A stretch of 64,000 nt of DNA. Origin: Paenarthrobacter sp. PH39-S1 (lineage in GTDB: Bacteria > Actinomycetota > Actinomycetes > Actinomycetales > Micrococcaceae). The stretch is taken from assembly GCF_030063245.1 (NCBI RefSeq), contig NZ_JASISR010000003.1, positions 124,001 through 188,000 on the forward strand. The letters are read 5' to 3'. Below the pieces are notes generated by a model, which ran no database searches, was not told the DNA's origin, and was given only the letters and a program-made list of their open reading frames with translations. The position numbers were made by a program, and so were the translations under genes. How positions within the stretch are numbered: the first letter of the stretch is position 1; every line of letters starts with the position of its first letter. Of the stretch, positions 18,986 to 20,491 are shown one piece after another.

Positions 18986-19016
18986 AGGCATTAATACTAC
19001 TCCAGGCATTAATACT
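18986..19016. repeat. Direct repeat AGGCATTAATACT x2
   Basis: Two perfect 13-base copies at 18986-18998 and 19004-19016, 18 bases apart. They are AT-rich against the background and lie upstream of the HTH gene and at the very end of aroG, whose stop overlaps the second copy by one base. Possible operator for the HTH protein. Confidence 0.7.
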
Positions 19017-20284
19017 CAGTGCCCGCCCTGCGTCACGTTGTTGGCCCGGCGCGTGCGTGCGCTGCCCGCCAGACGGTCCAGCACGGCGGCCGTAACATCC
19101 CATTCCATGCAGGCGTCGGTCACGCTCTGTCCGTAGGTCAACGACGCGGTTGACGCGGTCCCGGCGGCGACCGCGGCGACATCCAAAGTTTGTGCCCCGC
19201 CGACCAGGAAACTTTCCAGCATGACGCCGGCAACGGCGTCGGCAACGGCGTCGGCCGATTTCCCGCCGGCTTCCAGCTGTGCGCCGATTTCCAGTGCGAC
19301 CTCGGCCTGGCGGTGATGGTTCTTGCCGCTGTTCGCATGGCTGGCATCGACAATCAGCCGGGGGTTCAGGCCGGCAGCCGCAAGTCGTGTGGACGCCGCG
19401 GTGACCTCCTGCACCCCGTAGTTCGGCCCCTGGTGGCCGCCGCGAAGGATCATGTGGGTATCGGGATTGCCCGCGGTGGAGACAAGCGCTGCGTGGCCCG
19501 CCGCGTCGATTCCCAGGAAGGACTGCGGCACGCAGGAAGTGGCGCACGCGTCGAGCGCCACCTGCAGGCCGCCGTCGGTCCCGTTCTTGAAGCCGACCGG
19601 CATGGAGAGGCCGGAGACCAGCTGCCGGTGGATCTGGCTTTCCGTGGTGCGGGCGCCGACGGCACCCCAGGAGATGAGATCGGCGGTGTACTGCGGACTA
19701 ATCGGTTCCAGGAATTCGGTCCCCACCGGCATACCCAGCCGTCCCACCTGGAGCAGGAAATCACGCGCCTGCCGCAGTCCGGACGGGACGTCGTGGCGGC
19801 CGTCCAGCCCGGGATCGTTGATCAGGCCCTTCCAGCCGACGGTGGTGCGCGGCTTCTCGAAGTAGGCCCGCATGACGATCAGCAGATTCTCCTTGTGCCG
19901 CTCGGCCGCGCTGACCAGTCGGCGAGCGTACTCCAGTCCGGCACGGGTGTCGTGGATGGAACACGGACCCACGATCACCAGCAGCCGATCATCAACGCCG
20001 TCCATGATGGCGCGCACCTGATCCCGCCCGCGCTCGACGACGGCGCTCAGCTGCGCGTTCACCGGGAGCTCGGTGGTCAGTTGGGCAGGGGACGGCAAGG
20101 GGGTGAATTGGCTGACCCGCAGGTTCGAGGTGGGCCGTGGGGCCGCAGTGTAGGCGCTGGAGCCCCCACCGGCGCCTGCCGCGCCGGTGGCCGCACCGGA
20201 TGCCGCGCCAGTGGCCGTGTTGGCGGCTGCCGCGTGGCTGGCGGGGCCGGCACATACGCCGGTGGATGTCGCGTCGATGGTCAT
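19016..20284 (-). CDS. aroG: 3-deoxy-7-phosphoheptulonate synthase, class I
   Basis: DAHP synthase joins phosphoenolpyruvate and erythrose 4-phosphate in the first step of the shikimate pathway. The 422-residue protein is of the AroF/G/H class: LLVIVGPCSIHDTRAGLEYA near residue 104, FLEPISPQYTADLISWGAVGART, ILRGGHQGPNYG and the metal-site segment DASHANSGKNHHRQ. The first 55 residues are an Ala/Gly/Thr-rich low-complexity extension before LRVSQFTPLPSP. Upstream lies a short peptide gene with Trp, Tyr and Phe codons and two hairpins, so expression is probably controlled by ribosome-mediated attenuation. Confidence 0.95.
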   Translation of the reverse strand: MTIDATSTGVCAGPASHAAAANTATGAASGAATGAAGAGGGSSAYTAAPRPTSNLRVSQFTPLPSPAQLTTELPVNAQLSAVVERGRDQVRAIMDGVDDRLLVIVGPCSIHDTRAGLEYARRLVSAAERHKENLLIVMRAYFEKPRTTVGWKGLINDPGLDGRHDVPSGLRQARDFLLQVGRLGMPVGTEFLEPISPQYTADLISWGAVGARTTESQIHRQLVSGLSMPVGFKNGTDGGLQVALDACATSCVPQSFLGIDAAGHAALVSTAGNPDTHMILRGGHQGPNYGVQEVTAASTRLAAAGLNPRLIVDASHANSGKNHHRQAEVALEIGAQLEAGGKSADAVADAVAGVMLESFLVGGAQTLDVAAVAAGTASTASLTYGQSVTDACMEWDVTAAVLDRLAGSARTRRANNVTQGGH

Positions 20285-20343
20285 GGGAGGTCCTGTTCCT
20301 TGGCTGGAAGCGGGCCCTGAACAGAACCCGCCGGAATTGGCGA

Positions 20344-20426
20344 AGGACAGGGAATAATCCCTGTCCTGTTGGCTCTGAAGAAGGTCGGATGCGTGTCAGT
20401 CAGACGCGGGCCCCTCCAGAGCCAAC
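20344..20426 (-). promoter_or_regulatory. Putative attenuator of aroG (two adjacent perfect hairpins)
   Basis: Read on the minus strand, GTTGGCTCTG (20426-20417), inside the leader peptide gene, pairs perfectly with CAGAGCCAAC (20377-20368). Directly after it AGGACAGGGA (20367-20358 in minus order AGGACAGGGA) pairs perfectly with TCCCTGTCCT (to 20344) around a 4-base loop. The second hairpin ends 60 bases before the aroG start. It lacks a T-run, so it may stop transcription weakly, act with Rho, or control translation. The order leader codons, first arm, second arm, final hairpin matches classical attenuators. Confidence 0.65.
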
Positions 20427-20455
20427 GGAAAATTCGCATACCAACGGTTTGTCAT
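20396..20455 (-). CDS. Aromatic amino acid leader peptide
   Basis: A 19-codon frame, ATG 20455 to TGA 20396, reading MTNRWYANFPLALEGPASD. It holds one codon each for Trp (5), Tyr (6) and Phe (9), then codons 10-13 form the first arm of the hairpin described above. Shortage of charged aromatic tRNA would stall the ribosome just before this arm. GGTGGGG lies just upstream of the ATG, but the likely -10 box is so close that the transcript may be leaderless. Confidence 0.7.
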   Translation of the reverse strand: MTNRWYANFPLALEGPASD

Positions 20456-20461
20456 GGCCCC

Positions 20462-20491
20462 ACCATAGCCAGGTTTCTAACCGGTCAGCAA
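20462..20491 (-). promoter_or_regulatory. Possible promoter for the aroG leader
   Basis: On the minus strand TTGCTG (20491-20486) and TATGGT (20467-20462) are 18 bases apart. TATGGT ends seven bases before the leader ATG, so transcription could begin at or next to that ATG. The boxes are only partial matches to the sigma-A consensus. Confidence 0.4.

Follow-up and report, generated by a model that had tools for sequence, protein, structure and literature searches.

A putative AroR-type leader peptide attenuator upstream of the class I DAHP synthase gene of Paenarthrobacter sp. PH39-S1

The analyzed DNA (64,000 nt of contig NZ_JASISR010000003.1 of Paenarthrobacter sp. PH39-S1; referred to below as the window) contains a gene encoding a class I DAHP synthase, directly preceded, on the same strand, by a leader region with its own putative promoter (Table 1). 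A class II DAHP synthase is also encoded elsewhere in the same genome. The initial annotation of this locus, made from the sequence, had identified a 19-codon peptide gene, two perfect 10-base hairpins and a -10 box located close to the ATG codon. All of these features were confirmed in the window.

The putative promoter consists of the sequence TTGCTG, placed 18 nt 5′ of TATGGT, which ends 6 nt ahead of the leader ATG. Position -1 relative to this codon is exclusively C or T in all 113 leaders compared. The resulting promoter logo leaves no room for a Shine-Dalgarno (SD) site and thus fits a leaderless mRNA, whose predicted start is the A of the ATG codon (20455). A leaderless transcript had already been suggested, and the conserved logo supports this idea. 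The -35 element overlaps the 3′ end of an upstream acetyl xylan esterase-type gene of the same orientation (20477-20491).

Table 1. Predicted features of the leader region and the DAHP synthase gene (positions in the window)
Feature	Position	Strand	Conservation and remarks
-35 element, TTGCTG	20486-20491	-	TTG kept at -37 to -34 in 113 leaders
-10 element, TATGGT	20462-20467	-	TAnnnT kept at -13 to -7 in 113 leaders; same spacing class-wide
Leader peptide gene, 19 codons (MTNRWYANFPLALEGPASD)	20396-20455	-	Near-invariant RWYAYF(x)2ALE in Micrococcaceae
Aromatic codons W5 (20443-20441), Y6 (20440-20438), F9 (20431-20429)	20429-20443	-	Family norm W-Y-A-Y-F; Y8 is Asn here
Segment a (GTTGGTATGCG), complementary to a′	20435-20445	-	a:a′ beats shuffles in 79/105 sequences
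Segment x, 5′ arm of hairpin A (GTTGGCTCTGGAGG), codons 10-15	20413-20426	-	Covaries with b′ in family and class
Segment x′ (GGGCC), possible local partner of x core	20409-20413	-	p ≤ 0.05 in 49/105, median 0.06; suggestive
Segment a′ (CGCATCCGAC), just 3′ of leader stop codon	20384-20393	-	a:a′ complementarity
Segment b′, 3′ arm of hairpin A (CTTCTTCAGAGCCAAC), core CAGAGCC (20377-20371)	20368-20383	-	Covarying pairs
Hairpin B, 10 bp, loop TTAT	20344-20367	-	Six covarying pairs in family, seven in class
Hairpin D, CGCC-AATTCC-GGCG	20329-20342	-	Three covarying pairs in family
Segment d (GGTTCTG), alternative partner of b′ core CAGAGCC	20322-20328	-	67/105 at p ≤ 0.05 vs shuffles
Hairpin C (GCGGGTTCTG with CAGGGCCCGC, i.e. 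segment e), excludes b′:d	20310-20331	-	36/94 at p ≤ 0.05, median 0.08
Probable SD of DAHP synthase gene, AGGA	20291-20294	-	Also complementary to d in PH39-S1
Class I DAHP synthase gene (aroF/G/H type)	19016-20284	-	TIGR00034, E 1.6e-132; PF00793, E 1.4e-80

The leader RNA (171 nt) has a folding z-score of -5.1, and none of 200 shuffled sequences was equally stable. Hairpin A is composed of GTTGGCTCTG (20426-20417), perfectly paired with CAGAGCCAAC (20377-20368), in a helix that can be extended to 14 pairs, while hairpin B is a perfect 10-bp stem (AGGACAGGGA-TTAT-TCCCTGTCCT). Neither of them is followed by a T-run in the window (the tail after B is TCGCCAATTC), in agreement with an earlier remark on the last hairpin, and B was not flagged by a terminator scan of this DNA. 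The element had been taken to end with hairpin B at 20344; it in fact continues to about 20310, and two further segments (d, e) and two further hairpins (C, D) belong to it. Segment d, which is able to take b′ from x, and hairpin C had been overlooked.

RNAalifold, applied to 36 sequences aligned across the class, recovered hairpins A and B unprompted, and 10 of the 18 pairs change on both sides. Two-sided changes in the family alignment affect one pair of A, six of B and three of D; hairpin B is the most strongly covarying part. For both alignments, the covariation score was reached by none of 500 shuffles, which do not correct for relatedness, and a slid-partner control, which does, was also clearly exceeded. 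The arms of hairpin A change jointly (x/b′ is either GGCTCTG/CAGAGCC or GGCTCCG/CGGAGCC), and locus L060, from outside the Micrococcaceae, appears to be an independent case of the former. Taken together, the stability of the leader fold and the compensatory changes in leader and hairpins argue that the element is more than a chance arrangement.

A search of 395 Micrococcaceae genomes revealed the leader DNA pattern in 170 of them (once per genome among the matches listed), counts that are not independent, since many of the compared sequences are closely related; the reversed pattern, used as a control, gave no match in the same genomes. Within a subset of 36 genomes of this family, the leader and the class I DAHP synthase coincide perfectly, the leader being present in all 15 genomes with the enzyme and in none of the 21 without it. 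The initial annotation had pointed to this family as the place to look for conservation, and there the leader and both hairpins are indeed kept, with compensatory changes. The 113 extracted leaders contain some near-duplicates, and the alignment was built on 50 representatives. All but one of these leaders (112/113) encode RWYAYF, the exception being that of the window, with RWYANF. The peptide had been described as carrying a single codon per aromatic amino acid; this holds for PH39-S1, but not for its relatives, which have two Tyr codons. The change at codon 8 (20434-20432; TAT to AAT, Asn for Tyr), unique among the 113 leaders, is either real or an assembly error, and it leaves PH39-S1 without the one Tyr codon able to flip the predicted structure of related strains.

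The b′:d pairing, whose significance was assessed with dinucleotide shuffles of 105 sequences, is present in 91% of family cells, in a one-sided manner, because b′ is frozen. Pairing of d with b′ would preclude hairpin C, a candidate terminator, which forms in folds with a masked ribosome at the stop codon; support for C is moderate, and weak in Streptomyces-like loci. A classical antiterminator composed of b′ and hairpin B was rejected: such a pairing was detected in 0/97 sequences with the 5′ part of B (p 0.05) and in 3/97 with the 3′ part. The order of leader codons, hairpin A and hairpin B had been regarded as the mark of attenuation; A and B alone do not make up a classical attenuator, and the competing partner of b′ is d. 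A pseudoknot of a:a′ with x:b′ was judged sterically unlikely, by reasoning rather than computation. Several Pseudonocardia/Rhodococcus-type loci (L068, L102, L106, L128, L245-L247, L250) are devoid of hairpin B, and their b′ and d apparently form one adjacent hairpin (CGAGCCGG...CCGGCTCG).

Ribosome-masked folding was performed with a 28-nt mask, and the family and other sequences were tallied separately. With the ribosome at the last Phe codon, the predicted structure contained b′:d in 44/53 family and 28/42 other sequences, and with the ribosome at the stop codon x:b′ was formed in 50/53 and 30/44, respectively. A stall at Trp or at the first Tyr led to x:b′ (the OFF form) in almost all sequences, and the second Tyr codon flipped the fold in 21/53; for a stall at W5 of the window, the outcome varies with the exact mask. 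When the sequence past B was shuffled, b′ still paired downstream under the Phe mask in 414/970 cases (43%), compared with 74/97 (76%) for the real sequences. The background is fairly high, and masked folding may be said to support the predicted switch without proving it. An untranslated ON state, maintained by a:a′ and x:x′, was also considered as the default and dropped, because equilibrium folds of the ribosome-free RNA give x:b′ in 40/53 family sequences.

The composition of the leader peptides bears on the signal that is sensed. Trp, Tyr and Phe occur together in 112 of 124 distinct peptides, and the last aromatic codon, standing 8 or 11 nt from x, is a Phe codon in 116 of them (TTT in 113). 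The leader codons mostly end in U (TAT 338 vs TAC 9; TTT 218 vs TTC 27); codon usage in four genes of the window favors TAC and TTC. From the final position of Phe, its TTT codon and the bias toward U-ending codons, we infer that Phe is the main signal. It is thus probable that a shortage of this amino acid, and not of all three aromatics equally, is the main trigger. The proposal that one switch senses all three products finds little support in these data, in which the predicted fold is flipped only from the final aromatic codon, almost always TTT for Phe.

A leader peptide attenuator, AroR, is known upstream of aroF of Corynebacterium glutamicum (Neshat et al. 2014, doi 10.1016/j.jbiotec.2014.05.033, as cited in PMC11802643, PMC11525245 and PMC4046766). 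To compare it with the window element, the aroF start was located by a published primer (PMC7356990) in one genome of that genus, the identity of the region being based on an exact 27-base match and the FYF peptide. The DNA 5′ of aroF encodes MFAARFYFMSGSGASPRQLAISCAT, containing FYF as reported for AroR, and comprises the leader, x (CCGGCTCCGG), the stop codon, b′ (CCGGAGTC) and a hairpin B with a T6 tail; no evident d was found there. The two elements share (i) the type of target gene, (ii) a -10 sequence near the start (TTAAGGT, i.e. TAnnnT), (iii) an aromatic run that ends with Phe and (iv) the succession of x, stop codon, b′ and B. The arrangement had been thought to look different from aroR, but since the order of parts is the same, the window element can be classified as AroR-type. 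The C. glutamicum leader differs in having FYF without Trp, a longer peptide, the T6 tail and no evident d, whereas that of the window combines W-Y-F with a degenerate tail and is followed by d, C and D. Because of the missing T-run and the added d/C layer, the window element is not identical to AroR.

In our opinion, the class I DAHP synthase gene is probably controlled by a leaderless attenuator of the AroR type, which acts through the translating ribosome and is switched by Phe via x, b′ and d. The earlier reading of the region as a leader peptide attenuator is thereby supported, as far as sequences can tell, by the conservation of leader, promoter and hairpins. RNA polymerase would begin transcription with the first base of the leader start codon, and a ribosome would translate the 19-codon peptide. 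A ribosome that has reached the stop codon would leave x uncovered and stand just 5′ of b′, so that x:b′ (hairpin A) forms; d would then be free to pair with e (hairpin C), resulting in low expression. When charged tRNA is short, a ribosome stalled at the last aromatic codon (Phe, TTT) would cover x, b′ would pair with d around hairpins B and D, hairpin C would be blocked, and the gene would be expressed. Phe would be the main signal, with a partial contribution of the second Tyr codon in the relatives of PH39-S1 and none in this strain, which lacks that codon; a role of Trp and of the first Tyr codon would require kinetically controlled folding.

Conservation bears out the predicted leader, leaderless promoter and alternative pairings. 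The direction of the switch is deduced from masked folding and from the reported response of the C. glutamicum relative to Phe, and the output step may be termination at B or C, the action of Rho, or translation. Besides the high background of the masked folds and the moderate support for hairpin C, the following observations speak against the full model: (i) C. glutamicum has no evident d, so b′:d is not the whole story for AroR, (ii) several lineages have a terminator-like hairpin B, for which no conserved competing pairing was found, and (iii) W and Y codons are kept, although W and the first Y play no part in the equilibrium model.

In the strongest alternative, termination takes place at hairpin B itself, as in C. 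glutamicum, with A modulating B by neighborhood or timing and the b′:d/C layer being secondary or irrelevant. Hairpin B, the part with the strongest covariation, is followed by a T-run in C. glutamicum aroR (GCTGCTTTTTTGTTTCC) and in Streptosporangiaceae-like loci, where it resembles a terminator, and transcripts of a leader peptide attenuator at aroF were seen by RNA-seq in C. glutamicum (PMC4046766). We regard this explanation as possible but not the one to be preferred: the tail after B in the window and in most Micrococcaceae (TCGCCATTTC) contains no T-run, the terminator scan was negative for B, an antiterminator pairing with its 5′ part is absent from all sequences analyzed, and termination at B leaves the conserved segment d unexplained.

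Somewhat more doubtful is the sensing of all three aromatics under kinetic control, in which the local x:x′ pairing would form first whenever the ribosome stalls at W or Y, and would keep x from b′. It would account for the joint presence of W, Y and F in most peptides, for the complementarity of a:a′ and x:x′ and for U-ending codons being favored at Tyr as well. On the other hand, a stall at W or the first Y leaves almost all sequences in the OFF form in equilibrium folds, and the a:a′ pairing could be the reason why these codons are conserved. For C. glutamicum aroR, the one relative tested, a response to limitation of Phe, but none to Tyr, was reported (review PMC11802643).

Control at the level of translation, in which d would pair with the SD region of the synthase gene and b′:d would release it, appears unlikely. 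It would explain the missing T-run, and GGTTCTGTTC of PH39-S1 can pair with GAACAGGACC across the SD (p 0.03), with similar pairings in L017, L086 and several Arthrobacter-like sequences. However, d:SD reaches p 0.05 in only 9/94 sequences (median 0.53) and is not conserved over the group, so SD sequestration was rejected as a shared output; moreover, the control by C. glutamicum aroR is reported to be transcriptional (PMC11802643). In three Promicromonosporaceae-type loci (L017, L086, L098) d can pair with the SD region, and L086 differs from the other two on both sides of this pairing; a translational layer specific to this lineage is possible.

A separate function of the peptide as a small protein, with hairpins of no significance, would fit its nearly invariant amino acid sequence within the Micrococcaceae, but is highly improbable: synonymous sites are frozen too, x covaries with b′, in other families the peptide varies freely while the pairing is retained, and the peptide has no match in Pfam or NCBIfam.

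The favored AroR-type attenuator resembles the trp and phe attenuators of Escherichia coli in its regulatory codons within a leader peptide, its alternative hairpins and its dependence on stalled versus completed translation. In contrast to them, it is predicted to be leaderless, has no T-run, its middle segment shows no conserved pairing with hairpin B, and this hairpin lies between the competing partners. The attenuator of C. glutamicum ilvBNC (PMC11857589) also has a leader peptide and three hairpins acting as terminator, antiterminator and anti-antiterminator; it differs in amino acids, sequences and target gene, and was proven by mutations, whereas the window element is known from its sequence. 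Leaderless sensor ORFs, for other amino acids and genes, include the mycobacterial cysteine leaders and other actinobacterial ones (as cited in PMC13236596). The list of leaderless leaders of S. lividans names no DAHP synthase leader (PMC8079986), and no Rfam family matched the element at or above the curated threshold. A survey of Actinobacteria from 2005 found no conserved RNA regulation 5′ of phenylalanine and tyrosine operons (PMC1262725), and we found no earlier description of an AroR-type element outside Corynebacterium in the open-licence papers searched.

Across the class, leaders with a similar promoter were found 5′ of a class I DAHP synthase gene in about 60 cases, e.g. in Streptomyces, Mycobacterium, Gordonia, Williamsia, Tsukamurella, Dietzia, Isoptericola, Kribbella and Amycolatopsis, and they precede 44 of the 45 DAHP synthase genes examined in a Mycobacteriaceae-like family. 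Some class I DAHP synthases, e.g. in Nocardiopsis, were found without a leader. The predicted AroR-type device is thus widespread in the class Actinomycetes. A covariance model built in this study also matched 12 Streptosporangiaceae-like genomes (L281-L292; family label inferred). In these 12 genomes, which have no class I DAHP synthase match, the element precedes another reading frame; in L282, this frame has a chorismate mutase domain (Pfam) as well as a region weakly similar to DAHP synthase. We count these matches in favor of the AroR-type reading. Weak matches of the model (E above about 1e-4) beside unrelated genes (L293-L295) were discarded, as they look like ordinary terminator hairpins.

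More tentatively, these elements may constitute a class-wide RNA family gating entry into the shikimate pathway, in which a leaderless peptide is coupled to the chain a:a′, x:x′, x:b′, b′:d and d:e. Hairpin B would then be a bystander and the switch would lie beyond it, the output (a U-less terminator, Rho or translation) would depend on the lineage, and Phe would be read strictly, with Tyr and Trp read kinetically. Covariation across many families makes the switch testable through compensatory mutations. Annotators gain an RNA family and a small ORF absent from current libraries, and the element has a bearing on engineered production of aromatics in Actinobacteria.

RWYAYF leaders are also present in the Microbacteriaceae-like/Propionibacteriaceae-like loci L056, L191, L192 and L058, with DAHP synthases 63-67% identical; joint transfer of gene and leader, or a binning error in the case of L056, is possible. 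In Burkholderiales (L072-L074, L082, L092, L095, L096, L105, L111, L114, L120), short ORFs, e.g. MSAKFYFYFFWYLRPLADREGC, lie 5′ of the genes for class I DAHP synthase; they look like a different aromatic leader and represent a candidate further attenuator.
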